Positions 813 through 63,287 of a DNA stretch of 64,000 bases are shown one piece after another. Positions within the stretch are counted from its first letter, which is position 1. Every line of letters starts with the position of its first letter. The translations under genes were made by a program, and so were the position numbers. The stretch is from contig NC_079885.1 in assembly GCF_029227915.1 (NCBI RefSeq), forward strand, positions 25,421,001-25,485,000, in the 5' to 3' direction. Origin of the DNA: Hydractinia symbiolongicarpus (Eukaryota > Cnidaria > Hydrozoa > Anthoathecata > Hydractiniidae). The notes under the pieces are model-generated. The model searched no databases. It had not been told where the DNA came from and was given only the letters and a program-made list of their open reading frames with translations.

Positions 813-925
813 TCGCTGTGGTCGCTCGAATAGGGAGATTTTTAAAAAGTCTATTCGCTGCGAACGGAAGAATGCTGTTAACACTTGGCGCGTAAAATTT
901 AAAATCGTTTACAACCAAAACAAAT

Positions 926-1411: not shown

Positions 1412-1850
1412 TAAATTCATGTTCTGATTTTACTATTTATTTTTTTTACATTGTGTCCTTTTATTTGTCTAATTCAGGTAAAGGGACATCTAAGAACAGC
1501 AATGTCTTTAAAATGATAACCCAAGGAAATCAATCAGCACTGAATAAATCTTTACCACTTGGACACACTGTCTTAAAAAGAAGATTTTTGTCAAATGCTC
1601 CTGGTTATATTGTTTTTTCCCGAAGGAATGCAAGTAAATGCAAAAATAAAGACCCAAAGAATTTGGGGTTTGTGTATGCTTTTTTATATGCAAAATCTTG
1701 TCAGCAGTTTAAAATTATTGTCAATAGATTAGGATATATTTTAAAGCAGCACTTATTCTACTGAATGTGTAACTCTTACTTCCAACTAACAAAGGCACTG
1801 TAATGCACTTTAAATATATTTAATTATTTTGGTTCTTCAAAGTCGAGGGA

Positions 1851-2388
1851 TTGGGAGAAGTAAGTAAATGGGATCACCTAATTAAAGACTATCTAATCAA
1901 TCCATCACAGAACTACAAATATTCCACCTTTAAATACATTGTGCAGCATTTCGGTAAAAAGACTACTTTAACGTTAGAAGAGCAGTTTTTCACGTTATCT
2001 GTTATTCCCAACTTCCACAGATGGGAAGCAAATAAATCCAGTGGTGTAAAGAAAGAAGAATGTTTTATTGGTAGCGGACGATCACCAATACACCAAGTAC
2101 TGCTTGAATAGGGAAGCTGGGTACTTTAGAAATTCTCGTTTTTTCCACGATGTCTTTCACGGTTACAGTCACGGCTGTTCGTCTGTTTACAACAGCAAAT
2201 CCTTTCCTGGTTTAACCTCTGTAAACACATCCATATGTGAGCAGTTTAATTCATACCTACAATGTATCAAGTCTTCTGCAAAACATATGTCCCAAACTAA
2301 TTTCATGTTTTTTGCACAGTTTATGATTCATATTTGGAATCAAAACCACAAAATATATCACTTTAAAATTATCATTTGTTTAGCGTGA
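1851..2388 (+). pseudogene. Fragment of an unassigned transposon-like protein
   Basis: Two overlapping frames (1851-2111 and 2068-2388) appear to be pieces of one older coding region. The second contains FHDVFHGYSHGCSSVYN, FPGLTSVNTSICEQFNS, then AKHMSQTNFMFFAQFMIHIWN. Closely spaced His/Cys residues followed by an NTS-x-x-EQ-x-NS block recall uncharacterised multicopy proteins of fish and invertebrates thought to be transposon-derived, but I cannot name the family. There is no good start codon or splice evidence. It directly follows the Harbinger first-exon fragment and precedes a minisatellite, so it is probably a decayed insertion. Confidence 0.35.
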
Positions 2389-2399
2389 TCAACCTCCTC

Positions 2400-2940
2400 T
2401 CCAGGACCCCAGTGTGAGACTTAAACTGAGCGCACACAAGGAAGAATTGTCGCGGACTCGCCTTTCATTCGGAACCTTTTCTATTCAAAATCCCTTTTCA
2501 GAGACCAAAATTCATCGAAACAACATAAACTGAGAGCACATAAGGAAGAATTGTCGCGGACTCGCCTTTTATTCCGAATCTGTTCTACTCAAAATCCCTT
2601 TTCAGACCAAAATCCAATAAACAACATAAATTGAGCGCAGAGAAGGAAGGATTGTCGCGGACTCGCCTTTCATTCGGAACCTTTTTTACTCAAAATCCCT
2701 TTTCAGACCAAAATTTAACGAAATATCATAAACTCATCCCACAGAAGGAAGAATTGTCGCGGACTCGCCTTTCATTCGGAACCTTTTCTATTCAAAATCC
2801 CTTTTCAGACCAAAATTCATCGAAACAACATAAACTCATCTCATAGAAGGAAGAATATTCGCGGACTCGCCTTTCATTCTGACTCTTTTCTACTCAAAAT
2901 CACTTTTCAGACCAAAATTCAACCAAACAACACAAATGGA
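2400..2940. repeat. Minisatellite, ~102-bp unit, about 5 copies
   Basis: Five head-to-tail copies anchored by GAAGAATTGTCGCGGACTCG-like sequence begin near 2441, 2545, 2645, 2748 and 2850, giving periods of 100-104 bp. Each unit also carries a TTTCATTCGGAACC block, a CTCAAAATCCCTTTTCAGA block and an AACAACATAAACT block. Copies differ by point changes and small indels, and the last unit has lost part of the GTCGCGG core. The frame at 2631-2846 is a by-product of the repeat. Confidence 0.88.
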
Positions 2941-5644
2941 GCCTACTAACATATTATCATGAATGAATATAGATTTCTTTATAATTCGGAATTTTGTGCT
3001 AAAAAGCCAATTCGTAAAAGCAAGGTTTTTCCATGTGTATGGATGGCTTTTTGAAATTAAAAGTTACAGCCATACGTTTTCTGAAGGGTGGCAAATTGCA
3101 TGTGTATAGATTTCTTAGAGATACAGGGTATTTTTTCAAACTTACTGGAAGATGCAATATAAAACAACTTTGATGGAATTTTGTTCAGTGTTTTTTAAAT
3201 ATGTAGAAATATATATAACTTTACATTGTAAATATGATCACTAAGTATACAATACAAAATTCAAACAAAATAAAAAAATTTAACTTGTTCAGAGGCCCTT
3301 TTTGGAATGTAAACGTTCAACTTGGTATGGCGGTGCAGCCTTGTAATTTCTTTTACACATTTTTACATCCATCTATAATAAAATAAGTAAAATTACTTTA
3401 AAAAAGCTAGGACAATCTGCCATTTTTTAAATAGGTATATAAACGTTTAACAAATATTTTTTAACAAAGTTTCCTCAAATAATTATTTTTTACCATTAGA
3501 AATAAATATAACATCACTCTAAATTGACATAACAGGAAGGGATGAGAATGGCAGGATGTTACCACAAAATAATACTAAACAAATGGTCCTTTTTTCATGT
3601 GTAACACCAATATTAAAAGTAGTCTACTGCATGTACAAACTATTGACTATGTATCAATCATTCAAAAACTATTGCACAGACTATTTCTATACTATTATTT
3701 CACTATTCTGATTTTATACTGTATACCATACACAGATATTTGTTACGATATTTGCATTTCTTTGTATTTTAAAATATTAAAATTATTGTCAATTAATTTT
3801 TTTTAATATAGAAAAGAAAGTGCTTTACCCCTTTCCCTTCTTACATCCAATTTATTGTTACAGGGATAAACAAACATATAGTCATCCTCTTAATTTTTTA
3901 AAGCATAGCTATAGACAAGTTATGAACATTTCCATATAAACAGTCAGTAAAAAAGAAAGATCACATGGAGTAAATGGACCAACAAAAAAACCTACTTATT
4001 GGTCACAGAAGAGTACAGCTGAAAGATCAAATTTGGAATTTTTGTAATGATCCCTGTCATGTTGTATGGACATGTCCAAGTATTGAAAATAGAAAAAAAA
4101 AGAATCTTGCTTTTTCCTTTATTGCCTGTTCTTCGAAAAGTTTATACACCCTTTTTTAATATAAAAATATAGTCTATAGGATAGTCGAGATGAAATTAGA
4201 CAAAAAGGTATAAACAAACTAAGATCCATGCCTGCATTGAAATTTTATTTGCATCAACAAAAAAGTATTTACTTGCATCTTTTATTGACATAACATGTCT
4301 CTCCTCAGATTTTATTTAAAGACATTTTCCCATAAATTTTAGTTTTTTGTCTGTCACTTGAATTAGTCTACTTAAAAAACAGCACCTTAGGAGTGATTCT
4401 TACACCAGGCTACATTTCTATGAATATATCATGATCATTTTTGCCTAAGTTTAGAATATTTTATGTTGAAACAAAAAACACCATTCTTATTAAAAAAACA
4501 GGGATGAGAACTGAAGGTGAAATAAGGTAAAGTAACAGATTTCTTCAAATTCATTTTCTGTTAGAAGATAAGATGTACTCTGTTTGGGTAGTACAGGTTG
4601 AAAAGTAAAAGGCTTACACAGTTTTAGATCAAGAGATTCTTTCGTGTTTGCAAACAGGCTCAGCAACAGGTTTCGAATTGGAATAGTATATGCACACATT
4701 ATGTGTGGAAAGGCTTCTTTAAACGTTGGCCAGACCGGCTGAATTCCCTTAGGAATACATTCATCTCATACATTGATATTTTTGCACATGCGCAAACATT
4801 TCTGTAGGTAGAAAATATACACAACAGACCACAGTAATCACAGAAATCCATTTAAAAAAAAAATATTTGCTTAAAATTAATAAAAGTTGTTAAGAAAAAT
4901 TACTTGAATATATTAAATTTAGCTAGTTTCAGTTTCTGTTGTAAGTAATAATTTATTTTATGCTACTCAAAAAATCTTTATTCTTTCTTTAATTGCCATT
5001 TTCCCTTCGTGAAACCTGCTTTTTTACCTACACAAAAGCTCACGCATGCCTATTGTTCTCAAAATGAAATCGAAATAACTACGTCACACGGAAAGTGGTC
5101 TATTAAATGACTTAAATGGCTATATTTAGGTATTTAGCTATATTAGCTATATCTATATTTAGGTACCTAGCTATATTTAGGTATTTCATATAGCTAATAC
5201 ACGCTAATACAAATTTCAATTTTAAAAAGGACAATCAGTTGACACAGAAAGTAATGCCCCTGATACTTCAGTTTTCTTGGCAAACATTTTTCATCAACAT
5301 TTATTTAGCTACCTAAGCTAGGTTCTCCCTCTCTCCTCTCTCTGTCTCTCTCTCTCTCTCTTTAGGTCTAGCTTGCCCCAGCAGGACAGTCAGTTAGCTA
5401 GCTAGCTTTTGTCAATCAGGGCCAACCTGTTTTTCAACCCTAATAAGTGTCTAATTCAGCTAGCTTTCTGATTAGATTTATTTAACTAAAAAAATTAATT
5501 AAAGATCATCAATAGCAAAAAGCTACCATTTAAAATACAAGAAAGTCTGTTGTTGCCCGACTGTACGCGTTCGGGTCTCCACCACTTACCGCAGCCAAGG
5601 TGCCATTTATGGTGCTAGCATCAACCAATCAATGCAACCCTTCA
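2941..5644. other. Non-coding stretch, no gene recognised
   Basis: AT-rich DNA with only short frames lacking recognisable domains. It includes a degenerate TTAGGTATTTAGCTATA-type simple repeat near 5110-5210 and a CT-rich microsatellite near 5325-5362. I see no splice-linked coding pattern or RNA gene. Confidence 0.5.
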
Positions 5645-6510
5645 TTACATAATGTTCCATTTATATTGCTGCGGAATAGTTACTTCCTCCGTGTGTTTCT
5701 TACGCTTCGATGCTTCTTCATAATTATGATTGACAGAAAATAAAACAGCAAATGCTTGACCTAGGTCATCTTCAGAATTATCACTGTCGGTTTCTTCTTC
5801 GACTTTTCGAATACGTCGATTTTTACCATCATATTTGGTTGATTTATTTCTGCAAACTTTTGATAAATGATTCGATTTACCACAATTATAACATTTCTTA
5901 CCAATAGCATAACACGTCTTTTGATGATTCGGTGTAAAGTGTTCTCCACATTTATAACAATACTTGTTGCTATGGTTACTACGATCTCTATCGTCGTGTC
6001 ATTTTTGCTGGGGTTTATAATGTTCGTTACTACATTGAACTTTGTTCACTTGTTCGTCTTCAGTTGAACTTGACGACGACTTTGTTGTAGCAATTTCGGC
6101 TGCTTCTTTCTGCGATATTTCTAGATTCCGACTAATTTCTAATAGTTTTTCTAACGTAAGATTTTCTTCTTGAAGTAATTTAAACTTTTTGATCGACATG
6201 TAAAAATAAAATGGTCGCGTATTTCGTTTTCGGAGTGATCATTGAATGAGCATGTGTCTGCGAGAGTCTTAAGCCTTGTTATGTACGAAGAGCAAGACTC
6301 ACTTACCTCTTCTGTTGCACTTTTAAATACGAATCGTTCGTATGTTATATTTTTCTTCGGAATAAAATACGTCGTTAATTTTTCTTTGACTTCATTGTAC
6401 GAGTCGTTTTCTTGTTTTACTGTTTTGTAGACTTCTCGTAAGTCTCTACCACCAAGGTGAAGCAGAAGTGCGATTTTTTGTTTTTGTTCACTCACGCCAG
6501 ATGCTGTTAT
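5645..6510 (-). pseudogene. LTR-retrotransposon Gag fossil (Ty3/gypsy-like)
   Basis: Read on the minus strand from about 6510. The first frame has a capsid-like retrotransposon Gag region (KIALLLHLGGRDLREVYKT, then YFIPKKNITYERFVF, FRD-type block NEIRDHFIF). After a frameshift near 6190 a second frame continues through EENLTLEKLLEISRNLEIS. After a stop at 5999-6001 a third stretch carries two zinc knuckles, CYKCGE...HQKTC and CYNCGKSNHLSKVC (a CX2CX4HX4C knuckle), then an acidic tail ending at a stop near 5645. This is the usual order of gypsy-type Gag. No protease, reverse transcriptase, integrase or LTR is seen beside it, so it is an isolated, broken remnant. Confidence 0.72.
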
Positions 6511-7549
6511 GAATAATGAAATTTAGCTATGGTTTGAAAATACATGATACTTACTGTGCTAATTGTGAATGTAGTTTTAAATGCTCTTGATGTTAAAAGA
6601 TTTCTTTGCTTTCAAGGTCTTTTTGCAATAGTGTACCGAAATTTATTTTATATAAGCTGTTTGTTTTGATTTTTTTCAATTGTTTTTATAATTGGTTAGC
6701 ATTAGCAATTTTTTCAGTTTTTCCATAACTACTTAACTTCTTCGGGGTGGATCTAGCAATGGTGCCATGGCACCATTTAAAATTTCCAAAGTGACCTCTT
6801 TATGGACAAAGAGACCAAATATCTTTCATTAAATATATCTTTAAAGGAGCAGTGTGGTGAGCGGTATACGCATTACTCGGTGCGTTTTTATAACAAATAT
6901 TCCACGTCGTTTGTTGTTCCGTGTTTAAAACTCGCTGTTTGTGTCGCAAAACAGCATTCAAGCTATTCTTTTACACATTTCCTGCTCTTGTGGAACGTTT
7001 CTTTTGCGTGGGCCATAACTCATAAGCTAATGAAATTTGAGAACGTTCTAAGCACCTCGCTGTCTTGCCGGCAAAATGTAATTTGGCACCAGCCGGCTCT
7101 CGAAGGTGTCGCTGGCACTGGTCGCCTGGTGCCAAATTTTGGATTTATATGCTAAGGTCTTGCTGAGGAAATTTTCGTCTGGTGCCAAAATTTGAAATGT
7201 ACGGCCGACGATGTTGCGAATGAAACAGCCGAGATGAAATATAAATATTTAGCTTTGTTTGTGCGCTCTCTCTTCCCTACTTAATTTTGACAGCTTTTGA
7301 TATCTAGCTAATTATATTTCAGGAATCCTAATTAAATTTTATAATTGCTTTTGTTTTTGATGCCATATTCGACTTTTGTTTTCTGGTTTGTAAGCATTTC
7401 ATTTTTAAATTCTGCTCTCTGTTTTTTCTGAGTTTTAGGATGGATTCAAGGTACTTGTCACTTGTAACTTAACTTTGTTATGGTTCACTCCCCCAACCCC
7501 CCCCCCCCCCCCTCCCCCCCACTGATAAATCTGTTTACATCTAGATTGA
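6511..7549. other. Non-coding stretch with short inverted repeats and a C-tract
   Basis: No gene recognised. It contains a 20-bp perfect palindrome at 6758-6777 centred on GCCATGGC, inverted 12-bp arms ATTTGGCACCAG and CTGGTGCCAAAT between about 7081 and 7137, and a cytosine run at about 7497-7520. The 117-codon frame at 6802-7155 has no domain and overlaps the inverted repeat. Confidence 0.5.
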
Positions 7550-8232
7550 TCGTGTTCCCGTTCCATACATGCCTTATAATCTGCCGGGAGAAGAAAGTTC
7601 TGGTGGTGGCATAATCCTCTTGAGGTCCACTGCAAATGGAAATTTCCTTTAAAATTCATGTTCAATACTTCTCACTGGAGATGAAAACATATGTCATTAA
7701 CTAAGAGCATCTGTGACGACAGAGTTGATATTGTATGCAGATTTCTATGCTAAACAACTGTACATTTTTGACAAAATATAAAATAATCCTAATCGGCACA
7801 GATATTATGCATTTGTATGACAACATCTTGTGCAGCCAGTGAAGATCTTTCAAGAGATGCTACCACCATGGTTGATTGTGTCAAAAAAGAAGCTAGCTTA
7901 AACCGTCATTGGGGCCCCATGATGACTATGTTGTCATTATCATACGTTGTGAAACGTAAAATGAAATCTGTGTATCCTATCACATCAAATACCACAAATG
8001 TTAGTGTTTACAATGGCAATATAACTCCACGCGATTCTAGTATGGAAAGATTATGCACTTTGTTGATAATGTGGTCAAGAATAGGGGACCTTTGTGAAGT
8101 TGGAAGTAGTTTCAGTGCTAATCACTTTGTGCCATTGTACATCCAAAGTTCAACCAAAGATAGTAACAGCGGATTGTAATTGCCTGTTGATGCAAAAGAA
8201 CCACCACCATGCAAAAAGCAGAAAATTAAAAG
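7550..8232 (+). pseudogene. OTU/vertnin-like domain gene, decayed
   Basis: Reading plus-strand frames together gives a recognisable OTU-like block: PYNLPGEESSGGGIILLRST, then ANGNFL where active family members have a G-N-C motif, then a stop, NSCSILLTGDEN, and ELILYADFYAK. A frameshift near 7800 leads into a cleaner stretch (7817-8179) with EDLSRDATTMVDCVKKEASL, NRHWGPMMTMLSLSYVVKR, KSVYPITSNT, MWSRIGDL and FSANHFVPLY. An in-frame TAA at 8177-8179 is followed by PVDAKEPPPCKKQKIKR and a good splice donor (AAAAG then GTAAGT) after 8232. The block order matches proteins of the vertnin/OTU-like group that are multicopy and mobile-element associated in invertebrates and fish. The catalytic-type Cys is replaced by Phe and several stops are present, so it is non-functional. 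Confidence 0.6.
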
Positions 8233-10494
8233 GTAAGTAATTGTTTCATTTTATTTTTCTACCTAGATTGGTTTATTATTGCACTAATATGTCCTTTCTA
8301 GGAATTAGATTTTATTTTTTTTTCATTTTCTAAGAATTCAATTCTTATACATAACATATACCATGCAGCCAAAGAGCATGTGATTTCTAAGAATTCAACC
8401 ATGAAATGACCTGTATTTATGTATTTAGACATGTAGTGTTGTGTATTTAACTTATAATTGTTTATTTATAATAGGTTGGTGGGGATGTGAGTTATAGGTG
8501 TTTTTTTACAATGTATTTGCTGTTGTATTTTGTTGTTAAGATCCACATACAATCAAAGTTATATTTCTTTTGAATTTTTCTGGAAAATATATAAATGTAT
8601 CATATTTTTACATGTTTCATCTGTACTTTGAAATTTCTAATTCAGTAGCAATCTGTACTTTTATCATTCATACTTCAGTGTCATTGTGTGAAACTAGAGA
8701 AATCACCAAAAGCGTACTAAGAGTGCCTATAAAGTCATACATTCATGTAGGACAATTACATAATGCACTTTTTACGTTCTTAGATCATAATGCGAAGTTC
8801 ATTGTTTTATTTATAACTATTCAAAATTGTTATGAACTACATTTCAAAACGATGCATCAATATTTACACATACAACAATCAATATTAACTACATTAGTGT
8901 CTTTTTTGGCTTATCTGAGTGCCCCCAAAGCCTTAGAAATGCGAAATTTTCCCAAGGGCCCCAACTGTTTTGGATCAAGCCGCGCCAAATTGACGTAAAG
9001 CGGACCACTCGATAAAAATCCTAAATCCGCCCCTGCTTCTAAGATTCCTTGTTGTTAATTTAATCCTCGAAGTCTTAAATATATATATAAAAAATGTTAC
9101 TAGCTTAATAAGTCTCGATTAAAAAAGTAGTATTTTGTTTTTAATTCTGTATTTTAAAGGTTTCAATCTAATTTGACAAACACATCCACTGTTTTACACA
9201 ACTGTGGTAACTGAATGACTTAAGAAATCTTCACTGCAAAAATAGGTAAGTCGGTAATTGCGCACCCTACATCCCCAGCAGTACGCGCGTGTTTTGCTTT
9301 GCCCCTGTAGTCTGTGTTCGTCCCTGTAGTCTTTGTTCAGGACTTTTTTCTTGTTATGATAACTGTGTTACATGTAAAATTGAATAGAAGTAAGGACTGT
9401 GTTATGGAGCAGACCAAAAAGCCAATCGGAATGATCTGTTTTTCAAAATGAACACGGAGTCATGAACTGCGTTTTTTAGCAGCCATGAGAAGAGTAAGTT
9501 GCCTCTTCTTTAATAAGACAGACTAGTCTATAGCCTGCGTTTCGTTTCCGTAGCACGAATTTTTGGAATAAAATACAGACCAAATAAAAAACTTTTTTGC
9601 TAATGTGATGTCATTTTTCATGACGTTAAAATTTCTGGAACAAAGCATTTTCTTGGTATTAAGTCCATAGGTTATTTAATTAGTATAAAGGGAAAACTGA
9701 CAATTTTTAATAGATGGAAACTTTTTTAATACAATTGCTTTTAAAAGTAGCGAAGTTGATTTTCACATTAAAGTCTCTCTGAAAAAAAGAGTTAGACCTT
9801 TACTACTCTATAAACACGATTTTTCGTGCAACATAATGTTTTGATATTACATTGAAGACAATGGACACGCGCGCGTTTCGGTAGGTAGAATAACACCAGA
9901 CTACACTAATCTAAAAATATACCACAGGATACCTGCATGTTGATAAGGCTAAATGCAATCCAGCCCGTATTTAAACTGATTCTTTATCTTTAACGTAAAA
10001 CTAAGAATGAAGAAGTGAAGAATATAAGTTACCTGAAAAAGCAAATTTGATTTTGCTACAAATTCAAAACTGAGTTGCAGCTACTTTTGTATATAAATAT
10101 ATTCAGTTCTGCAACACAAAGCCTGCCCAAGAAAAAAGGCAATTTTTGTGTATTTTACATAACCTTGTTTTGCAAATCAAATAGAAGCTGTATTTTCTAA
10201 TAGCAGAGCGCTAAAAATCTAATTAGGCAGAATAACAATGGTAAAGACCCGTTATTTGAATTTTGATGAATTCAGCAATGACCAGTCGGTACACAAAATT
10301 TCATGCCTGAAACGCTGATTAAGAAAGTTTATGGAAAAGTTCTTTTTCTTTAGCAAAAGCTGATTTTAAAACCTTATCCTGGTTTCTACAAACACAATAA
10401 AATATCTATCAGTTAGTAAATGCGATATGAGGTGTTTTATCTATCTGTTTCAAAAAATATTACCCTCGATCAGCGTATCGACCTTGCAAACTCA
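8233..10494. other. Non-coding stretch, no gene recognised
   Basis: AT-rich DNA following the OTU-like remnant. A 142-codon frame at 8570-8998 lacks family features and has a composition typical of random AT-rich frames. Between 9295 and 9340 there are two copies of a CCCTGTAGTCT(G/T)TGTTC phrase. Nothing else could be assigned. Confidence 0.45.
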
Positions 10495-11129: not shown

Positions 11130-14100
11130 TTAATTACTGCCAGCGTTTGGTGATGCAAAAGACTGAGTATAACTGTGTATATCTTGCTCATTATGGGGTG
11201 GTATCTGTAACACTACAGGTGAGTGTGGGGATGTCATCATGCTGGAATAATACGATCCTTGCAAGTTCTGTGGAGTTGACTGTCTTTGTACTACGGGAGG
11301 AGTAGTTGTACTCAGTTGAAATGGCAAAGGTAGTAGCCCGAACTGTGCTTGGAAGATTAATTCCTGTATTTTTACTTTAGCATATTCCTTTACCCGTTTA
11401 TCAGGAATTTCTTGAAGACTCAACCCAATGTTTTGTCCAAAAAGAACATCAACGTGATTGACTTTGTCCTTTTTGGATGACAATACGGCCATAGCTTCAT
11501 TAAGCATTACGTCTTCTTTCGCTTTGCTATTATCAACCTTCCGTTTTTTATTCAACGGCTGTTTGGTTGACCGGGGAACATTATTGTCTAGTTCTATCCT
11601 TTTGGTTTCGTCTTCTCTGTAGTCAGCAAAGAATCCTTCACAATCGTCTTCCTCGTTAGAGTTGTATTCACCGTTTTCCTAAAAATATTTTTATTTTAGA
11701 CACCATCAACAGAAGAGGAATGGAAAACAATTGCTAAAGAGTATGAAGAGCGTTGGAACTTCCCGAATTGTATTGGTTCTATTGATGGCAAACATGTTGT
11801 CATAAAGCAACCTCGAAATAGCGGATCGTACTATTTCAATTATAAAAGCACTTTCAGTATTGTGCTTTTAGCTTTGGTAGATGCCAATTACAAATTCATT
11901 TATGTTGACGTTGATTGTAACGGAAGAATAAGCGACGGAGGTGTATACCGAAATAGTTCACTTTCAAAAGCCTTGGAAGGTAATCAATTGGGACATTGTG
12001 ACCACTGTCCTGGAATTTCCTGGAATGTCCTGGAATTTAGTTTTTGTCCTGGAATGTCCTGGAATGTCCTGGACTTTCCTTCTTTTTTAGAGATTGTCCT
12101 GGAATGTCCTGGAATTTAGTTTGAAGGCTGCATATTTAATTTTTAAGGATAATTAAATTCTTTTTTTTAGGCTTTCTTGCTTGATTTCTAGTTTTATCAT
12201 TGGTTTAGTATTTATTTCCCATGGTATATCTATGTTATGTTTCACTTGACCTTACCTAACAATTAAGTTTCTTATAGTTTACTTTTTATTTCTGTTTAGA
12301 ACTAGACTAAAAGAGATTACTAATGATATAATAATGCCAAGAAAATCAAAATTTTTAGACGACTGGCTAAAAGATCCGAATTACAAGACCTGGCTTTCCA
12401 AAAAAATGAAGGCTTTGGAAGATGTAAATACTGCTCGAAAGATATTTGCGTCACAAATATGGGCGAAGCAGCTATCAAAAGTCATAAAAAAAGTAAAAAA
12501 CACACTGAAAGAGAACCTGTTAATTCTTCTGTTCTCCCTTTTGTTACCGGTAACCAAAATGTAACAGATTCTTCCAAGCTAACGTACTCTTCTGAGCCAA
12601 CATCCTCTTCTGAGCCAACATCCTCTGATAAAGCAAGTTCCTCAACTAAACCCTGTCAAGGTACTTTAGATTCCATGTTTGAGAGAGATCAAATATTATT
12701 TGCAGAAATCCGCTGGGCTATGAAGGTGGTCCAGCCAAATAGCAGAAAAATTTTCTTGCGGAAGAACCAAATGTGGCTATCTCATTAACCATGGTCTTGC
12801 TCCATATTTCTTAGAAGTCTTGATGGAAGAAGTCAAGAAATCACCTACATATTCGTTATCCTTTGATGAAAGTTTAAACAAAAAACTACAAAAGGGACAA
12901 ATGGATGTTTTGGTCAGATATTGGGATAATGAGAAAGATATTTCCATAACAAGGTACATGAACTCTGAATTCATGGGTGGTGCAAATGCAGAGCAAATAC
13001 TCGAAACTTTTTTGAATGGGTCCAAATCTCTTAATCCAAAAAGTCTTATGCAAATATCTTCAGATGGACCAAATGTCAACCTAAAGTTTCTTACTTTATT
13101 TTCTGAAAAACGTGATCTTGATGAACTAGCTGGTCTAGTGAATATCGGAACATGTGGCCTGCATACTGTACATGGAAGCTTGAAAAATGGCATCAAGAAG
13201 TCTGGTTGGGAAATGGGAAAGGTGCTGAAAGCTATGTCAAAGTTGTTAGATGAATCACCTGCCAGAAGGGATCTGTACGAAAAGTTGACAGAAACAAATA
13301 TTTATCCACTGCCTTATTGTGGTCACAGGTGGTGTGAGAATGAAAACTGTGCAAATCGAGCAGACACCATATGGCCTGAATTTGTGAAGTTCATCAAACA
13401 TCTAGATGGTCTTATAAAGTCCAGACAGCCACAGGGGAAATCATTGGCAGTTCTTCAAAAAGCAGTTAAAGATCCCTTGATGCCTACAAAACTCAAGTTG
13501 GTAGAGTTCATCGCTTCAAAGCTTAACAAATTTCTGAGAGGCTTTCAAACGGATCAACCAATGGTTCCATTCCTATGTGATGTCCTTAAGGATCTTCTTA
13601 CTTCAATTATGAAAATGTTTATTCTAACAGGTAAGTTCACGAAGATCTGGTACAATATACAACAACAGAAGCTATAAATGACAGATACTATGAAAGACAA
13701 CTCACTAATACTATTTATTTAAAGGATAGAACGAGACAGATCTACAGTACGTCTACAACAACATCTACATCTACTTATGACTACATTGACTTGTGTAAAA
13801 GTTACTGTACTGGACTGGTAAATGCCGTTTGTTTATCCTTTATATATTACACTTTTCTTATTTTGCTTGAGAATTGATTATTTATTTAACACCGATCTTT
13901 CCTTACCATTTTTGATTTTTTGATTGATACCTTCAGATACCATCAAAAAGGCTGATACAACAATGAAACTTTTAAAGATCGATGTCTCGGATAAGAACAT
14001 ACATAAGCCCTCTGAAACGATTGATGTTGGTATGGGTGCACAACTCCACATCTCACAATTTCGGAGAAGCGGTGATTTTAAAGGAAGTTCCTTTCGAAAC

Positions 14101-16511
14101 TTTCATCAAGAAACTGTTCTGTTCTTATCCAGTGTGACCAGTCACATGATAGAGAAATGCCCCCTGAAACACATGATCATTCGATGCTGCAGTTCAATCA
14201 ATCCCAACAGGCTGGCCATTAGGGATGAAAGAGAAGTTTTAAAGTTAAGATTTTCCAAGATGTTAGAAAAGCTAACTTTTTTAGGGCAAGTCACCCCTAA
14301 AGTTGCTGAAGATGCTAAAGAACAGTTCTCAAAGCTCATTGATGATGTTGTACCTGAACACCAGGAAAAGTTTCTCTCATTTGAAAAGTTTGATCAAAGG
14401 CTAGATACATTCTTTGCCCAGTTTCTAAAAACAAAAGGTTTTGAGTCTTTATGGAGTATTTTTAAGCTCGTATTCTGCCTGAGTCACGGACAATCTGCTA
14501 TTGAACGAGGCTTCAAAGCAAATAAAGAATTCATTAAAGAGAACCAGTCAGAATGTTCGCTGAAATCATTAAGAATTCTGCACGATCACATGATTGCAAA
14601 AGAAGTGCGAGCACACAACATTCCAATTACAAGGGAATTAGTTAAGTCTGTCAAGTGTGCAAGATCGCGTTATGTTGAAATTAATAATGAAAAGAAGAAG
14701 TTAAAAGTGGATTCTGGAAAAGCATTGAAACGAAAGGTTATTTCAACTGAAATTGAAGAAGTGCAAAGGAAAAAACAATTCCTCCAAACCAGTATAAACA
14801 CTCTCATTAAAGATGCTGATGAATTGGCATTGAAAGCACACACAAATGCTGACTTTCAAATCCTTGGACGATCAAACGATTTACGAATGTTAGCCAACAC
14901 CAAGAAGGAACAATTTGACAAGTTGGTTCAGATGGAGCAAGCATTAATACTTCGAAAGGATTCCATTGTTTGATTGGAAAAGTATTTTGTAGTCTTATGT
15001 TGCTATTTTGTTATTGGGGTTAATTTTTGTTTGGCTAGCTAGTGTTTATTTTAGTTCAGAGATTGAATTCTTATGTTGTTACAGCTTTTAGTTTTGCGCT
15101 CAAAGAAATACATGACTTTACTTTATTTGTTGTCCTGGAATGTTCTGGAATTTTTTATTTTTTTTCAATTTTGTCCTGGAATGTTCTGGAATTTTTTATT
15201 TTTTTTCAATTTTGTCCTGAAATGTCCTGGATTTTAATTTAAAATGTCCTGGGAAAAAGGTAAAATGTCCTGGAATGTCCTGGAATGTCCTGGAATTTGA
15301 AAGTTTTTTTTGAGTGGTCACCATGTGGGAATGCCACCACCAGCAACGTTAAGTGATGATGAGAATGAATTCCCGTATGTTATGGTAGCTGATGATGCAT
15401 TTCCACTAAAGCTTAACATTATGAAACCTTACCCATTCAGAGGCATGACCAAAGAACAAAGAATTTTTAATTATAGATTAAGCAGGGCAAGGCGGATTGT
15501 AGAGAATGCAATTGGTATATTGGCTAATCGTTTTAGAATCTTTTTATCTCCTATACTTCTTTCACCAGAAAACGTCCAGAAGATTACTTTAGCAAGTTGT
15601 GTGTTGCATAATTTTTTACGGGAAAAAACTCCGTCAGGTTACACCCCTCCTGGAAGTCTTGATGTTGAGGATATTGAAAATGGAAGAGTGAATAATGGAG
15701 AGTGGAGGTCTGAATCAAGTGAAGCTTTGCGTTCAATAAGAGTTACTGGAACCAATAACTATAAACCTGACGCTAAAGCTGTACGAGATTAATTCTGTGA
15801 CTACTTTAATACAGTTGGAACAGTCCCATGGCAAGACAATTTCATTTAGATAAGTATATTATAAAAAGCAAATAAAAATACACTTGCCAGAGAGGATGTT
15901 GTTTTTCTTGGAATGATTGTGTCCAGTAAAAATGCCATACATTGAAAATAAGGCCACTTTGACTCGTAAATTTCATCTCTACCCGCTCCACTTTTTGGTA
16001 TTGATTTTTGGAGTTCTTTTGAATAATAACTTCGTAGAGTATTTATCTTTCTTTTCACATCACCCTCTAAATAATAAAATATGTATGTTTTATTATTGTT
16101 AGCTTTATAAATACGCATATATATACATGCAAATCAGAGTCAATAAAAATTGCAACAATTTACTACTAAAAATACTAATAAAAGTTACATAAAGTTGCTA
16201 ATAAAAGTTTTTTGTTTCTATAAATAATACAGTATAATTCTTAAGTTTTTAATAACAAAATAACATTCATTATGGTATTCAATCCACGAATATATAATGA
16301 TATAAATAAGGTTATTTTGATATGCTTTTGTATCGAGAATGTAAAAGTACAAACCTTCCATGGTGCATTTTCCCATCAAAATTCTAGTACTTTTAGCCTT
16401 TGCATCTTTGTTTTTATAAACTGTCAAAGTTACGTTCCACAGACTTTCTTCTTCTCTCCATGCACTTATAAAATTCTCAGTTGATTCCGTTTTCTGCGCT
16501 TTAGTTCCCAT
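11130..16511 (-). CDS. Harbinger-associated MADF-type DNA-binding protein
   Basis: Three minus-strand exons join in frame: 16511-16355, 16066-15888 and 11678-11130, giving about 294 residues. Exons 1-2 form a MADF (Myb/SANT-like) domain: FISAWREEESLWNVTLTVY at residues ~13-31, then KRKINTLRSYYSKEL and ESKWPYFQCMAFLLDTI, the usual MADF end. Exon 3 has an acidic stretch (SNEEDDCEGFFADYREDE), a basic patch (NKKRKVDNSKAKED) and a BESS-like tail (LFGQNIGLSLQEIP). Such proteins partner the Harbinger nuclease for nuclear import and terminal-repeat binding in studied members. Intron 1 is GT-AG. Intron 2 fits frame only with a GC donor (CTG then GCAAGT). Intron 2 contains nuclease exon 2 on the other strand plus the whole hAT-like insertion, so it has grown to about 4.2 kb. 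The coding exons themselves are intact. Confidence 0.8.
12007..12118. repeat. Left subterminal TGTCCTGGAAT repeats of the hAT-like element
   Basis: About seven copies of TGTCCTGGAAT or close variants lie within the first ~125 bp of the element, several directly adjacent, spaced by TTTAGTTT-type linkers. The same motif in the same orientation is repeated near the other end. Subterminal repeat clusters are known transposase-binding sites in hAT elements, so that role is a reasonable inference. Confidence 0.75.
12334..14973 (+). pseudogene. hAT-like transposase, N-terminal part damaged
   Basis: The protein opens with MPRKSKFLDDWLKDPNYKTW at 12334. A BED-type zinc finger should follow, but only its second half is readable (DICVTNMGEAAIKSHKKSKK, in another frame); a deletion near 12,438 removed the first Cys pair. 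A second deletion or shift near 12,735 breaks the frame between KVVQ and IAEKFSCGRTKCGYLINHG. From there the main domain is open: YSLSFDESLN (probable first Asp), MQISSDGPNVNLKFL (second Asp), CGLHTVHGSLKNG (the hAT C-x-x-H region), and a GT-AG intron at 13631-13936 joining MFILT to DTIKKADTTMK. The second exon ends at 14973 and includes GQSAIERGFKANKEF, the hAT C-terminal Glu region. The family assignment rests on motif order. Two N-terminal lesions make it non-autonomous as it stands. Confidence 0.78.
15134..15297. repeat. Right subterminal TGTCCTGGAAT repeats of the hAT-like element
   Basis: At least eight TGTCCTGGAAT-like units, including two longer 48-bp duplications with an ATTTTTTATTTTTTTTCAAT spacer around 15,133-15,228 and three immediately adjacent units at 15,266-15,297. 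The units face the same way as those at the left end, so relative to the inverted termini the array is not itself inverted. Confidence 0.72.
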
Positions 16512-56500: not shown

Positions 56501-56690
56501 TCTCCGAAACTTCAGAATTGTAAAACGAATTTTCTTTTCCTCTTATTTTACATGATCGCAATTTTTAAAATATGCGACTAAACGGGACAGGGTTTATGAT
56601 TTAAGCCAGATATTTTAAATGCAAACAATTGAAAAAAAAGCGCTAAATAAGGACCGTTGTAAAAGCACTGAAAAATTATGTCCTGGGTCT
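53571..56690. other. Non-coding stretch with a TCGAA-rich repeat and a C-tract
   Basis: No gene recognised. Between about 54,018 and 54,480 the phrase ACTCGAAC or its complement occurs many times (GGATAACTCGAACTTTC, GGTTAACTCAAACC, CGTTTAACTCGAACTTTCG), a degenerate repeat or remnant of an unclassified element. A run of 16 C is at 54,881-54,896, and a T-run at about 56,042-56,055. Confidence 0.45.
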
Positions 56691-56691
56691 A

Positions 56692-58121
56692 AACAGAGCG
56701 ATAACAAAGAATAGGCATAAACAGGACGATAACATAAGATGGTTATAAACAGGACGATAACTTGAAATGGGTATAGACAGGACGATAACATAAGATGGTT
56801 ATAAACAGGACGATAACCTAAGATGGTTATAAACAGGGCGATAACATAAGATGGTTATAAACAGGACGATAACATAAGATGGTTATAAACAGGACGATAA
56901 CATAAGATGGATATAAACAGGACGATAATATAAGATGGATATAAACAAGACGATAACATAAGATGTTTATAAACAGGACGATAACATAAGATACAGGACG
57001 ATAACATAAGATGGATATAAACAGGACGATAAGATAAGATGGTTATAAACAGGACGATAACATAAGATGGTTATAAACAGGACGATAACATAAGATGGTT
57101 ATAAACAGGGCGATAACATAAGATGGTTATAAACAGGGTGATAACATAAGATGGATATAAACAGGACGATAACATAAGATGGTTATAAACAGGACGATAA
57201 CATAAGATGGTTATAAACAGGGCGATAACATAAGATGGATATAAACAGGACGATAACATAAGATGGATATAAACAGGGCGATAACATAAGGTGGTTATAA
57301 ACAGGGCGATAACATAAGATGGATATAAACAGGACGATAACATAAGATGGTTATAAACAGGACGATAACATTAGATGGATATAAACAGGACGATAACATA
57401 AGATGGTTATAAACAGGACGATAACATGAGATGGATATAAACAGGGCGATAACATAAGATGGTTATAAACAGGACGATTACATTAGATGGATATAAACAG
57501 GACGATAACATAAGATGGTTATAAACAGGACGATAACATGAGATGGATATAAACAGGACGATAACATAAGATGGATATAAACAGGGTGATAACATGAGAT
57601 GGATATAAACAGGACGATAACATAAGATGGTTATAAACAGGACGATAACATAAGATGGATATAAACAGGACGATAATATAAGATGGATATAAACAGGACG
57701 ATAACATAAGATGTTTATAAACAGGACGATAACATAAGATACAGGACGATAACATAAGATGGTTATAAACAGGACGATAACATGAGATGGATATAAACAG
57801 GGCGATAACATAAGATGGATATAAACAGGACGATAACATTAGATGGATATAAACAGGACGATAACATAAGATGGTTATAAACAGGACGATAACATGAGAT
57901 GGATATAAACAGGACGATAACATAAGATGGTTATAAACAGGGCGATAACATAAGATGAGATAAACAGGACGATAACATGAGATGGATATAAACAGGGCGA
58001 TAACATAAGATGGGTATAAACAGGGCGATAACATAAGATGGGTATGAACAGGGCGATAACATATGATAGGTATAAACAGGATGATAACATAAGATGGATA
58101 TAAACTGATCGATAATATAAC
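56692..58121. repeat. Minisatellite, 28-bp unit, about 50 copies
   Basis: Unit ATAAACAGGACGATAACATA plus AGATGGTT, 28 bp. Variants alternate GGTT/GGAT at the unit end, GGACG/GGGCG in the centre and CATAAG/CATGAG. Two short 18-bp units (AGATACAGGACGATAACATA context) occur at about 56,991 and 57,739, each preceded by the same rare variant series (GATAATATAAG, then AGATGTTTATAAAC), which indicates a higher-order duplication of about 748 bp. Because 28 is not a multiple of 3, all frames stay open in places, explaining long repetitive minus-strand frames that are not genes. It ends only about 60 bp before the 5.1-kb transposon. Confidence 0.95.
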
Positions 58122-58207
58122 ATTAGAACTTTAGAGGTAAAGGACACAAGCTTTTTAATACAAGTTTTTATTATCGGTTCTACCGTGGCTGAATTGGACA
58201 AACTAGA

Positions 58208-58523
58208 TTCTAGTTCATAACTGGCGGCAAAACTCGCGCTAAAACTCGCGGCCGCGACTTATAACTAGCGGCCGCGACTTATAACTAGCGGCCGCGTGTT
58301 TTGCCGCCAGTTGTATTTTTTCTGGTCCTGATTTTAATACGTGTTGTTGTAAAAACTTTCGGCACAACTCGCGGCCGCTACTTATAACTAGCGGCCGCGA
58401 CTTATAACTAGCGGCCGCAACTTGTAACTAGCGGCCGCGTGTTTTTCCGCCAGTTGTGCTTTTCCGGTCCCGATTTTAATACGTGTTTTTGTAAAAACTT
58501 TTGGTGCAACTAGCGGCCGCGAC
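58208..58523. repeat. Left subterminal GCGGCCGC repeat array
   Basis: Eight GCGGCCGC octamers in about 275 bp. The basic unit is GCGGCCGCGACTTATAACTA (20 bp). Two larger modules of about 130 bp repeat, each running from three or four units through a TTTTCCGCCAGTTGT block and GATTTTAATACGTGT to GTAAAAACTTT. It lies between the terminal repeat and the integrase start (58595), so it could both bind transposase and act as a promoter. Confidence 0.9.
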
Positions 58524-58594
58524 AATATGAAAATTGAGAACATGCCTAAATAAAAAATAGTGTTCAGTATCAGCCACTATTCATTCAAGTAGGT

Positions 58595-59779
58595 ATGTCT
58601 GACAAATTTCTTCCTTCGACACATCCTGGCACATTGCAGGAACTTGTTTGTTATTACCATGGCATACATCCTAAACTTAAATACAAGGATATATGTTCCA
58701 TAATTGTTAGTCATCACAAGAAGAATGTTTCCATGTCTCAAATGAAAGCTATATTGAAGAGCAATGGATTGAACAGAAAAAGAAATGTGTCTGAAAACAT
58801 TCTAAAGGGTGTCATTGAAAATGAATTGCAAACATCATTGTCTAAAGTTGGATACCGTCAAATGACCGAAAATGTCTGCATGAAATATGGATTTTGTGTG
58901 TCAAAAGAAGATGTACGTCGGGCTATTAAAGAAGTTGACCCGGAAGGCGTGGAGAGTCGAAAATATAATACAATCAAAAGAAGAACATACTGGTCTCTTG
59001 GTCCCGGCGATGTATACCATCTGGACGGAAATGATAAGTTGAAGAGATGGGGGTTTTGCATTCACGGATGTGTGGATGGATTCAGCAGGAAGCTTTTGTG
59101 GCTGGTCGTTGCGTCTTCAAATAATGACCCGCTAATTATTGGTAATTATTATCTGCAATGTATCAGCCACTATAAGTTTTGTCCTCGATTACTGCGAATG
59201 GATAGGGGAAGAGAAAACATATATTGTGAAGATTTACAAGTTTTCTTTACTGGCTCCACTGAGAGTTTTTTATACGCAAACTCAACAAGAAATCAACGTA
59301 TCGAAGCATATTGGTCGCGCCTTAAAAAGTTTCGCACAAGCTGGTGGATTGAATTTTTCCAATCTATGGTCAGTCGCAACATTTATAAGCCGCAATTGGA
59401 TACTCATCAAGAATGCCTTCTTTTCTGTTTTTTGCCTATTATACAAAAGGAGTTGAATGAATTCGCGCACACATGGAACTTGCGCACAATTCGACAATCA
59501 GCAAACACTCCTGGAGGAAAACCTGATATGCTTTTCCATGTTCCTGAAACTGTTGGCTTCGAGAAAAAAGGTGTTGATATCGATGAAAGAGACTTGCAGA
59601 TTGCGAATAACTTATTACGCATTGAACATCCCCCGGTTCATCGCAATAAAGATATACACGAACTATTGATTTGTTACGTACATATAAACAGCATAAAAAT
59701 CGCTAAGGACGCAGAAGGTGGATTAGATATGTACATAAAGTTGTTGGACTTATTATCACGTGATGGATTTTTAATATAA
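58595..59779 (+). CDS. DDE integrase/transposase of IS3/retroviral type
   Basis: 394 residues, one exon, open throughout. N-terminus (~10-65) has an HTH-like pattern (LQELVCYYHGIHPKLKYKDI ... SMSQMKAILKSNGLNRKR). The integrase core shows all three acidic residues: D144 in VYHLDGNDKLKRWGF, D203 in LLRMDRGREN, and E237 in STRNQRIEAYWSRLKKF, 33 residues after D203 as in D,D-35-E enzymes. Family blocks CVDGFSRKLLWLVVASSNND, TSWWIEFFQSM and NEFAHTWNLRTIRQSANTPG match the IS3EU-like integrases abundant in fish and cnidarian genomes. The ATG at 58595 follows the left repeat array by about 70 bp. It should cut and join the element's ends. It is distinct from LTR retroelement integrases because no Gag, protease or RT accompanies it. 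Confidence 0.9.
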   Translation: MSDKFLPSTHPGTLQELVCYYHGIHPKLKYKDICSIIVSHHKKNVSMSQMKAILKSNGLNRKRNVSENILKGVIENELQTSLSKVGYRQMTENVCMKYGFCVSKEDVRRAIKEVDPEGVESRKYNTIKRRTYWSLGPGDVYHLDGNDKLKRWGFCIHGCVDGFSRKLLWLVVASSNNDPLIIGNYYLQCISHYKFCPRLLRMDRGRENIYCEDLQVFFTGSTESFLYANSTRNQRIEAYWSRLKKFRTSWWIEFFQSMVSRNIYKPQLDTHQECLLFCFLPIIQKELNEFAHTWNLRTIRQSANTPGGKPDMLFHVPETVGFEKKGVDIDERDLQIANNLLRIEHPPVHRNKDIHELLICYVHINSIKIAKDAEGGLDMYIKLLDLLSRDGFLI

Positions 59780-60263
59780 AACATTCAAGTATTGGGATTT
59801 AGAGATAAACAAACTAATATTTAACGTTTTTTGAGTTTTGCTTTTGTTAACAAAATATAGGTGTATTTACAGCATAAAAAATATTAACAACTTTTCAACA
59901 GGAAGACAAAAAGTCACAACAAGATGTGTATGCAAATGAGCAAAATTATAAAAGTCTAAGCTTCATGCTTTATGAGATTTTTTTGTAAAACTGGGATAAA
60001 AAATATTTATGCTAAAGCCCACAAAAAACAAAAAAACAAAACGAACTCATATATACACGTTTTTTTTATAAGAACAAAGTATTCAAATTTAAAAAGTTAA
60101 GAACGTTTGAAGGTCTTTCTTCAAGTTAGTGTTCTTATACAAAAAACGTGTATGTAACATAAGGGTATGCAACCAAAATTTAAAAAACCTTTTATACACA
60201 GTAACTAAAAGACTATATCCAAGTAATATATTACGAAAAACAACCTTCAAATATTCATTTCAA
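59780..60263. other. Intergenic region between converging genes, with hairpin
   Basis: Between the two stop codons. Contains inverted arms TACACGTTTTTTTTATAAG (60053-60075, continuing to AAC) and GTTCTTATACAAAAAACGTG (60131-60152), separated by about 55 bp, which could form a stem at the 3' ends of both transcripts. Both 3' untranslated regions must lie here. Confidence 0.6.
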
Positions 60264-62776
60264 TTAAATCTCTCCAAAACCACTACAAAATTTTATTGCA
60301 GTTTTCATTGCCTGTCCAACATTTTTTACTGGTAAGACAACAGTCCTTGAACAGGTTGACACCTTAGGAAGCACAATGTCCTCTTCAAAATTTATATCTA
60401 AAGGGTCATCCAATCCATGAGGTGGGATACGGTCAAATCCAGTAAAGAAAAACAATATATCTTCTAGAGATATACCAACATGATCACCGTTTGCAACTTC
60501 AGCAAGATAAATTTCAAATTCACAAATTGCTGATTCAACCAAAGATCGTTTGTTAGATCCAAGTATACCATCACGATTAATTTTTAGTAATGCAACAAAC
60601 TCATTTAAAGTTATTGATTTATTGTTTACTTGGAGGTACTTTCTCATAAAAACGACATTGTCTGGTTCACCTAAGGCTGAGTCGATGCTCATCAAACCTT
60701 TTCGAAAGTGCTCAAGAGCATGGTATCTGCTAAATATAACATAATTTTTTGCAAACATCATTTTATCCTTTTCTTTATCGCCAGATGGCAAAATGTTATT
60801 ATCCAGCATTTCATCAAAATTCCCTTCTTCAATTTGTTGAAGTTTCGCTTGAAGTTCAGCATCATCAACATTTATAACATCATTAGATTCTTTCGAATAT
60901 AACGCATCAACAACACAAAAATGTAAACATTCTGGTCCTCTAGCAGAGTTCAAAATTGATAAACCTGTCAGTTGACCCAATTTGTAATATGTTTTCATTT
61001 CCAAATCCTGTGGAGCAGCCTTAAAGCACAGGGCAGATGTTGATCCAAAAAATAGACCTGGCACAAGGTTAAAGTACTTCATGCACAAAGTTAAAAATTC
61101 TTTATAAGGACCTCCAGCATCAGCAGCTGCTTCGCCAGCAAATCGTATAATAAAATCATGCTTTTCTGCATCAAATGATTGTTTTAATAGTATGTTCCAG
61201 AATTTATTCTGATCTCTTTGAACAATAATGTGGCGTGGAGACATTTGGATCAACCGTTTAAATTTAAACCGTTCCAACGCACACTTCAAAAAATCCATTT
61301 CACTCACATCTTTCTCTTCAACATTGTTTTGATTTAATTCAAAATCAGCTGGAATATCATTTGCAAAAAAGCGGTCAACTTCATCATCACCAAAAACTTC
61401 AGAGTTAATTTCATTACTTGTTTGACACACTGGTGGTTGGTTAAGACTAGGAGACCCTATGGAATGTCTAAATCTTATAGGGCGTTGCACATATCTTAAA
61501 GAAAAATGACTTATTCTAGCTTCTCGTAATGCGGCATTGTTTTCAGGATGGATTTCGGGTTCTTCCTCAACATCCCCTTCTTCTGCAACTATTTCATCTT
61601 CAACAACAATAACACTGTTGCTATGATCTTCCAAGTGAGAATGTGTTTCTTGATTCTGCTTTTCTTGGTCTGCTGATAAACTAGCCTGATACTCCAGATT
61701 CTGCTCACATCGAATACAGCTAATATGATACGTACAGGAGCAAACTTGACAAATGTTACCCTAGTAGTGAAAAACAAAACATGAATATGAATATATGTCG
61801 AAAATTATTGTTAACATTTATATATATTCAAAATATTTTGTTGGTGTCATCCTTAATATTAATAACTTTTTACCTATTACATAAGCCATTATGCACAGAC
61901 AAAAGGCTGTAAAAGAGTTTATATATAAAATAAATAACATCATTTATCACCTTTTCCTCAACTTCAATATCTGCAAATGTCTCAAAATCTCCATCACTTT
62001 CGTCACTTGGAATTTGAGATATCTTCAAAAACGAATCCAGGGTGAAAGAACTGTAACTTTTTGGATAATAGAGATATAACAGAATTGCTTTCTTTTTTTC
62101 TTTCTGTGATAAAGCATATTGTTCTAAGTTTTTAAAAGTACTCTCCATCTTTTTCCCATTATACTGAGCTAAGAATGTTTTTACTCTGTCTGGCACGTTG
62201 TATAAATTACGAGCTATAGTATGCATCTCTTCGTAAGTGCACATACGTTTGCAGTCGATGCTGTGAGATTTGTTTCTTTTAGCCACATAACATTTCTTTT
62301 CGTAACACTTTAACCCAAATGTCACTTTATATACCTCAAGAACTCTAATTTGCCTATTTTTCGAATCAATGCCAAAAACATGGTTTTTTTTCAATTGGTG
62401 TTTTAATTCTTCAGCCCTTTGTTCATATGATTTAATGGTGTTGGAAGTGGCAGTGAATTCTTGTTTGTATGCTAAAATGTCTCCATAAACGAGACCTATT
62501 TCTAACAGTTTTGCATCTGTGACATCAGACGCGACATTGTCGTCAATTTTGTAGCAAACAAACGATGGCAGAAGATAATCCAAGCTTCTGGATTTTAGAA
62601 AGTGTTGAATCTACAAAGTAATATGTAGGGATAAAAAATAAATGTAAGCTTAGCTAAATCTGTAAAATATGTAGAAAAGTAAGATTTTATACTCAATTAC
62701 AAACAGAAGTAAAAAAAACAGCTCATTTTATTACCTTGCTGTAGTTTTCGTTATCGACCACAACATTAGCTGCCAT
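60264..62776 (-). CDS. Transposon-borne SAM/Cys-rich/HECT E3 ubiquitin ligase-like protein
   Basis: Three exons join in frame at GT-AG sites: 62776-62735 (14 codons), 62610-61951 and 61760-60264, giving 732 residues. Residues ~12-66 look like a SAM domain (KIQHFLKSRSLDYLLPSF ... ELL-type end LLEIGLVYGDILAY). A Cys/Lys-rich region follows (GLKCYEKKCYVAKRNKSHSI). Exon 3 opens with a compact zinc-binding-like knot, C238-x2-C-x-C-x2-H-x2-C-x2-C, then an acidic linker (VVEDEIVAEEGDVEEE). The HECT domain spans ~410-732: RFAGEAAADAGGPYKEFLTL, PGLFFGSTSALCFKAAP, KLGQLTGLSILN, and the C-lobe end LPKVSTCSRTVVLPV with the thioester Cys at C704. Resembles the G2E3/HECT proteins linked to mobile elements in fish and invertebrates. 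Transcription starts just inside the right repeat array. Ubiquitin-ligase activity and targets are inferred. Confidence 0.85.
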
Positions 62777-62827
62777 GTTTGTTTATGTTTAAAAACGTGC
62801 ACAGAAGCATTTTGTTTAAGCCCAGTG

Positions 62828-63232
62828 TTATAAGTCGCGGCCGCTAGTTATAAGTCGCGGCCGCTAGTTATAAGTCGCGGCCGCTAGTTATAAGTCGCGG
62901 CCGCTAGTTATAAGTCGCGGCCGCTAGTTATTAGTCGCGGCCGCTAGTTACGTTTATAAGTCGCGGCCGCTAGTTATAAGTAGCGGCCGCCAGTTAAAAG
63001 TAGCAGGCCGCCAGTTATAAGTCGCGGCCGCTAGTTATAAGTCGCGGCCGCGCTTAACAAGATAACAATTTACAGACCACAGCCATAGAATTTAAATATT
63101 TTACGGACCAGATTCCGTCTATTTCTGGCGGTAGAACAAGCGGCCGCGACTTATAAACGTAACACGCGGCCGCTAGTTATAACTTGCGGCCGCAAGTTAT
63201 AAGTCGCGGCCGCGAGTTTTACCGCTAATTTT
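62828..63232. repeat. Right subterminal GCGGCCGC repeat array
   Basis: About fourteen GCGGCCGC octamers. The unit GCGGCCGCTAGTTATAAGTC (20 bp) is the reverse complement of the left unit, repeated in seven near-identical copies from 62,835, with variants such as a TTAT-to-ATTAG change, an ACGTTTATAAGTC insertion, and AGCAGGCCGCC. After a unique gap (63,060-63,140, containing CAGATTCCGTCTATTTCTGG) four more units lead into the terminal repeat. It sits just upstream of the HECT gene start at 62,776. Confidence 0.9.
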
Positions 63233-63287
63233 GCCGCCAGTTATGAACTAGAATCTAGTTTGTCCAATTCAGCCACGGTATCGGTTC

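Follow-up and report, generated by a model that had tools for sequence, protein, structure and literature searches.

The colonial hydroid Hydractinia symbiolongicarpus harbors a DNA transposon in which the transposase gene is accompanied by a gene for a HECT-type E3 ubiquitin ligase. The element occupies positions 58181-63280 of a 64,000-nucleotide stretch of contig NC_079885.1 (assembly GCF_029227915.1, positions 25,421,001 to 25,485,000), the whole of which is called the window here. Searches of the whole assembly (481 Mb in 76 contigs, abbreviated C1, C2 and so on) and comparison of the sequences obtained show a complete transposon with young sister copies and both genes open, the HECT gene recurring as a convergent second gene across several families. 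The recurrence in copies and families, together with the ratio of nonsynonymous to synonymous substitution (dN/dS) between families, suggests that the ligase is a gene of the element, and it looks like a long-standing, working one and not a one-off capture.

The limits of the element were established from its inverted repeats, its flanks and its genes. An earlier note on this DNA had described perfect termini of 52 bp and a 7-bp flanking repeat, and both were found again. A 38-nt piece of the terminus, allowing up to 3 mismatches, occurs within the window only at the two ends of the element and in 0 of 100 shuffles. Repeats of 20 bp around GCGGCCGC lie inside both ends, inverted in orientation between left and right, and are probably binding sites of the transposase. 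The same note had reported two open converging genes; the convergence and the single transposase frame hold, and the HECT gene is divided into three exons instead of forming one open frame. The features of the element are as follows.

58174..58180: left target-site duplication, TCGGTTC (flank reading)
58181..58232, + strand: left terminal inverted repeat, 52 bp perfect; the arm to 58300 is 120 nt long at 95% (repeat search)
58243..58438: left subterminal 20-bp repeats with the GCGGCCGC core, in arrays 58243-58296 and 58366-58438 (repeat search)
58595..59779, + strand: DDE transposase, 394 aa, rva_4 integrase core, open and intronless (open frame, Pfam, alignment)
60264..61760, - strand: HECT gene exon 3, with a zinc-knuckle-like Cys motif, a conserved RHSIGSPSL motif, the HECT domain and the predicted catalytic Cys704 of 732 residues
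61951..62610, - strand: HECT gene exon 2, with an N-terminal helical region (low confidence) and a predicted ubiquitin-like beta-grasp domain (model)
62735..62776, - strand: HECT gene exon 1, with the start codon (gene model from sequence)
62827..63218: 20-bp repeats inside the right end, in the opposite orientation to those on the left, in arrays 62827-63051 (10.9 copies) and 63160-63218
63229..63280, - strand: right terminal inverted repeat, 52 bp perfect; the arm from 63161 is 120 nt long at 95% (repeat search)
63281..63287: right target-site duplication, TCGGTTC (flank reading)

The transposase matched the Pfam family rva_4 (PF24764) at 2.9e-33. The IS481 profile gave a weak match of 0.0011, below the cut-off, and the relative P0124 matched IS481 at 2.3e-7 and IS3 at 3.2e-7, both also below the cut-off. 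Residues D144, D203 and E237 were unchanged in all 36 aligned transposases (that of the window and 35 of 217 matches) and, judged by motif context, would form the catalytic triad, in agreement with the D/D/E integrase triad described previously. A PDB sequence search with the transposase gave no match at E up to 1. Viral contig collections yielded no tblastn-confirmed relatives, and neither did prokaryote contigs, for which the result refers to the transposase alignment only. A 252-aa partial transposase from another sequence source (P0034) is 98% identical to that of the window and represents a further copy or allele. The rva_4 protein clade of P0124 and its relatives (about 418 aa) has a hydrophobic, signal-like N-terminal stretch, which is odd for a transposase.

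The HECT gene model, built from sequence, joins exons 62776-62735, 62610-61951 and 61760-60264 across GT-AG introns into a protein of 732 aa with no internal stops. Pfam HECT matched this protein at 1.1e-8 and 35.5 bits, above the gathering cut-off of 23.9. Cys704 lines up with the Cys motif of E6AP (the C-terminal stretch alone scores a weak 3.1 bits), and of the 21 rows aligned (the window and 20 of 31 matches), 19 have Cys in its column and two a gap, so that the intact thioester Cys of the earlier reading is retained. When the predicted HECT model was compared with PDB, HECT-type E3 structures made up all of the 50 matches listed of 147. The HECT fold and Cys motif are common to the element ligase and E6AP, HUWE1 and Rsp5, at 14-19% identity to HECT structures among the matches listed. 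By its Pfam score and C-lobe cysteine the gene is a HECT E3 ubiquitin ligase, with predicted transfer activity. Exon 2 gave no Pfam family above the cut-off; its predicted model has a mean pLDDT (predicted local distance difference test) of 66, with 73-87 within the ubiquitin-like domain, whose fold matches include UFM1, PB1 and FERM-type domains. For the helical N-terminus, no fold can be named from so weak a prediction. To our knowledge, the N-terminal part with the ubiquitin-like domain and zinc knuckle is unlike that of the named human HECTs.

Closely matching termini at both ends were found at four places in the assembly, which constitute family 1. Besides the window element, they are the following.

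C4:1678193-1683179: C4b, with both genes inside the termini
C4:1669094-1677891: C4a, with both genes inside the termini
C10:27212807-27215910: C10 copy, with both genes, the inner part of each deleted

The transposase and HECT genes thus lie between the termini in the same layout in all four copies, and copies of the termini lacking the HECT gene, which had been named as evidence to the contrary, did not turn up in this family. Each copy has a separate duplication, of 6 bp in three copies (GAAAGT, ATAATT, TAAGAA) and of 7 bp in the window (TCGGTTC). Both genes are unbroken in the window copy alone. C4b shows two 1-base length differences in HECT exon 2 and none in the transposase or HECT exon 3; C4a has the same two differences together with a further one in exon 3, and its transposase is interrupted by a 3.8-kb insertion; the C10 copy, in addition to its deletions, has a 5-base difference in HECT exon 2.

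Family 2 was represented by seven examined copies, on C1, C2, C3, C5, C8, C9 and C12 (L026-L032). All have the terminus TACCGTGGCTGATTACAACG, and in six of them the inverted repeats are 275-284 bases long; the C5 copy yielded no right terminus. Five of the six copies with both ends have a duplication (CATAAC, CCTTTA, CTAGAT, CCTGTG and, on C8, the 7-bp CAAAAAT), and none was seen in the C9 copy, of which both ends were read. The two genes converge in all seven, and the gene order whose recurrence the earlier note had looked for is therefore found in 4/4 family-1 and 7/7 family-2 copies examined. That a host HECT gene merely came to stand between two unrelated inverted repeats is refuted by the same counts, with both genes inside the termini throughout family 1 and present throughout family 2, and its probability is negligible. 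The family-2 transposase frame is open in six of the seven copies, and HECT frames of 652-724 codons were found in five; the HECT defects are a changed C-terminus in L032, an internal deletion in L031 and a cut N-terminus in L026. The NCBI gene LOC130632632 (P0002) is a family-2 copy, its residues 11-662 being 100% identical to L031. Between families 1 and 2, identity is 52% for the transposase (204/392) and 42% for HECT (293/700). One copy, L027 (C9:18934500), contains an insertion at element-relative positions 4479-8308 with open frames of 955 and 353 codons.

More distant relatives are also present. L013, L017, L018, L022 and L023 hold decayed, convergent remnants of both genes, the HECT remnants being short or weak in L017, L018 and L023, and the two weak matches of L017 overlapping by about 100 bases. 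In L015 and L023 both ends are present, and 5 of 6 flanking bases agree. In a third, more distant clade, L033 and L038 have an rva_4 transposase (3.9e-35 and 1.8e-32) and a HECT-like gene on the opposite strand, with a HECT match of 2.4e-10, above the cut-off, in L038 and a weak one of 0.018, below it, in L033. L033 has the duplication CATATT. At L038 (C9:18644500), two third-clade transposase/HECT-like pairs apparently adjoin at 361-9623, the second enclosing a long TA simple repeat; the Pfam test covered the first pair only.

A census was drawn from 25 places, grouped from 75 matches of one whole-assembly search, and the share lacking HECT rests on these 25. Both genes were found at 16 of them (the window, C4a, C4b, C10, L013, L017, L018, L022, L023 and L026-L032), and one further place, C9:18654492, adjoins third-clade pairs (L025, L038). 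Six family-2-like HECT loci (C5:16450745, C9:19443564, C7:14522572, C1:27543721, C2:23779228 and C2:21439464) stand outside the pairing counts, as do three of the four 37% HECT loci and weaker loci. A HECT search of the whole assembly gave 68 matching stretches, the weak ones of which are perhaps ordinary host HECT genes; since these stretches are dispersed, the HECT gene is not the single-copy host gene that had been raised as a refuting case. Two NCBI HECT proteins from different contigs, P0014 and P0152, share 95% identity. L019 and L020 (C4:8755000 and C4:161000), 8.6 Mb apart, have the same terminus and the same right flank, which indicates a segmental or assembly duplicate.

Selection was assessed within and between families. 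Among the seven family-2 copies, the ratio of nonsynonymous to synonymous variants per site was 0.93 for the transposase (24 + 7 variants) and 1.02 for HECT (42 + 11); these few changes carry little information on constraint, and ratios near 1 in sister copies reflect neutral decay after insertion, as expected for transposon genes. Family 1 was then set against the decayed families, giving approximate values of dN/dS. L013 gave 0.22 for the transposase (312 codons) and 0.21 for HECT (74 codons), L022 gave 0.14 (253 codons) and 0.12 (279 codons), and L023 gave 0.19 (346 codons) and 0.13 (39 codons); for L018 the transposase value was 0.12 (188 codons), and for L015, which has the transposase only, 0.14. 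Between families 1 and 2, synonymous sites are saturated (a proportion of synonymous differences, pS, of 0.83 in the transposase; dS 2.4 and dN 0.61 in HECT). In the better-covered elements, dN/dS between families is thus roughly 0.1-0.2 for both genes. The HECT test suggested in the earlier note therefore revealed constraint between families (0.21 in L013, 0.12 in L022) and neutrality among sisters. The ligase appears about as constrained as the transposase in L013 and L022, despite the blur of saturation and decay, and this likeness is the strongest argument that the ligase serves the element. A passenger origin, in which the element took up a host HECT gene a single time without benefiting from it, would fit the neutral mix of HECT variants in family 2, the breakage of HECT in several copies and the existence of HECT-only and transposase-only derivatives. 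The same neutral mix is seen in the transposase, surely an element gene; pairing and layout persist between families that share 52% (transposase) and 42% (HECT) identity, and a more distant clade retains them too; and the constraint between families largely refutes such a passenger, which is very improbable.

The termini read TACCG..CGGTA in families 1 and 2 and TACGATGG..CCATCGTA in L033, that is, TA..TA in each case. Duplications were compared in 13 copies with both ends (four of family 1, six of family 2, L033 and the decayed L015 and L023): eight are of 6 bp, two of 7 bp (window and C8), two match at 5 of 6 bases (L015, L023) and the C9 copy has none. Eight of the ten perfect duplications therefore have the length usual for IS3EU/GingerRoot, the 7 bp of the window being less usual. 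Kojima and Bao (2023, PMC10045372) have described IS3EU/GingerRoot as having TA..TA termini and usually 6-bp duplications, and by this published description the present elements fit that group; the weak transposase similarity to IS481 (window), and also to IS3 (P0124), is a further likeness. In the main text of that paper the word ubiquitin is absent, and no HECT gene was found there for the group. Kojima (2025, PMC12730594) has reported fungal IS3EU elements with 6-bp duplications and ends TAYGG..CCRTA, in which, according to the text available, the transposase and alpha-kinase genes are oppositely oriented like the transposase and HECT genes here; the fungal accessory genes are a TET/JBP dioxygenase and an alpha-kinase, whereas the hydroid element has a HECT E3. 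Bao et al. (2010, PMC2836005) have described proteases (OTU, Ulp1) carried by Ginger1 and by Ulp1-bearing Mutator elements, also in Hydra, and have suggested an involvement of the ubiquitin pathway in transposition. These resemble the hydroid element in placing an enzyme of the ubiquitin/SUMO pathway on a transposon; as described, the protease domain of Ginger1 is at the transposase C-terminus and acts as an eraser, whereas the hydroid element has a separate E3 gene, a writer. Membership in Ginger1 itself was rejected, as its duplications are 4-bp CCGG/CCGT and its ends TGTNR, against 6-7 bp and TACCG ends here. Transposons with ubiquitin-pathway proteases are already known, and what appears new here is a HECT ligase gene as the recurring second gene. 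A separate HECT gene in this role was not found in the open-access literature among the matches listed, Repbase being outside the search. The H. symbiolongicarpus genome paper (PMC11067881) gives repeats as 50% of the genome and about 60% of repeats as unclassified, and its main text contains neither the word ubiquitin nor integrase. In a fish paper (PMC5638112), a match to the ubiquitin ligase G2E3 is mentioned for unclassified repeats, a hint of wider spread as far as its text goes.

We regard it as probable that the element is an autonomous IS3EU/GingerRoot-type transposon whose ligase acts in trans, most likely on a host protein that limits it. In such a cut-and-paste mechanism, the transposase would bind the long termini and the 20-bp subterminal repeats, excise the element and, as its family suggests, reinsert it with a 6-7 bp duplication. 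The HECT protein would take ubiquitin from an E2 onto Cys704 and transfer it to a substrate, which its N-terminal part (helical region, ubiquitin-like domain and zinc knuckle) would select. The substrate would most likely be a silencing factor or a repair/checkpoint factor, and the ligase would serve all copies. The main alternative is that HECT ubiquitinates its own transposase, for control of overproduction or for release of the complex after cleavage. The recurring pairing and the like constraint between families would fit a ligase and its substrate equally well, and the apparent movement of a copy with broken HECT is compatible with either model; we consider this alternative possible but distinctly the less likely. 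The sequence data themselves favor none of the three functions suggested in the earlier note, which were removal of host repressors, tuning of the transposase level and action in a particular cell-cycle phase. The weak preference for a host factor over the transposase comes from analogy with the OTU/Ulp1 (PMC2836005) and TET/JBP and alpha-kinase (PMC12730594) accessory genes, as far as described there.

Several observations weigh against a working role of the ligase as a host-directed gene of the element. Although the exon 2 differences are common to C4a and C4b, the two copies occupy different sites and each has its own duplication, so an element whose ligase was broken seems to have moved; alternatively, the common differences may come from gene conversion. 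Such movement implies that a copy has no need of its own ligase in cis, and over short periods the ligase might be dispensable; it probably acts in trans. In the census, four of the 25 places have one gene only (HECT in L012; transposase in L014, L015 and L024) and four have neither (L016, L019, L020 and L021, with 3.5-10 kb inspected). For a P0014-like HECT gene at C3:18034655, no transposase was detected in the 2 kb downstream, and hence not every HECT relative is shown to lie inside such an element. Higher dN/dS values were obtained for HECT in L018 (0.40, 37 codons), for both genes in L017 (transposase 0.44, 145 codons; HECT 0.62, 124 codons) and for L012, close kin with dS 0.08 (0.47), and near-saturated synonymous sites (dS 1.1-1.9 in L013 and L022) make the ratios rough.

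On a broader view, we lean towards an ancient animal transposon lineage with a HECT E3 as core second gene, which selection on the element would maintain for some role in transposing or in evading the host; many of the HECT genes in cnidarian catalogues (LOC130632632 being one), and perhaps the expanded HECTs of other animals with rva_4 transposases, would then be transposon genes and not host genes. If so, selfish DNA with its own ubiquitin-attaching ligase may actively rewire host protein turnover, and some annotated animal HECT genes should be taken, as a warning, to be mobile. The element makes the suggestion of Bao et al. on the ubiquitin pathway in transposition, as worded in PMC2836005, testable, and it is young, possibly active and found in a laboratory animal.

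Other repeats occur in the window, for which an Rfam scan at the gathering score gave no match. About 50 units of a 28-bp satellite form an array (56690-58120) that stops about 60 bp to the left of the transposon. A Mutator-like transposase remnant (PF20700, 3.9e-46) lies at 3-908. At 11700-15792, a Harbinger-like DDE_Tnp_4 transposase appears split, with profile positions 1-69 at 11700-12119 and 76-158 at 15301-15792; between its parts lie other open frames (12327-14973) flanked by tandem repeats of the GTCCTGGAAT type, and it is probably interrupted by a nested insertion.

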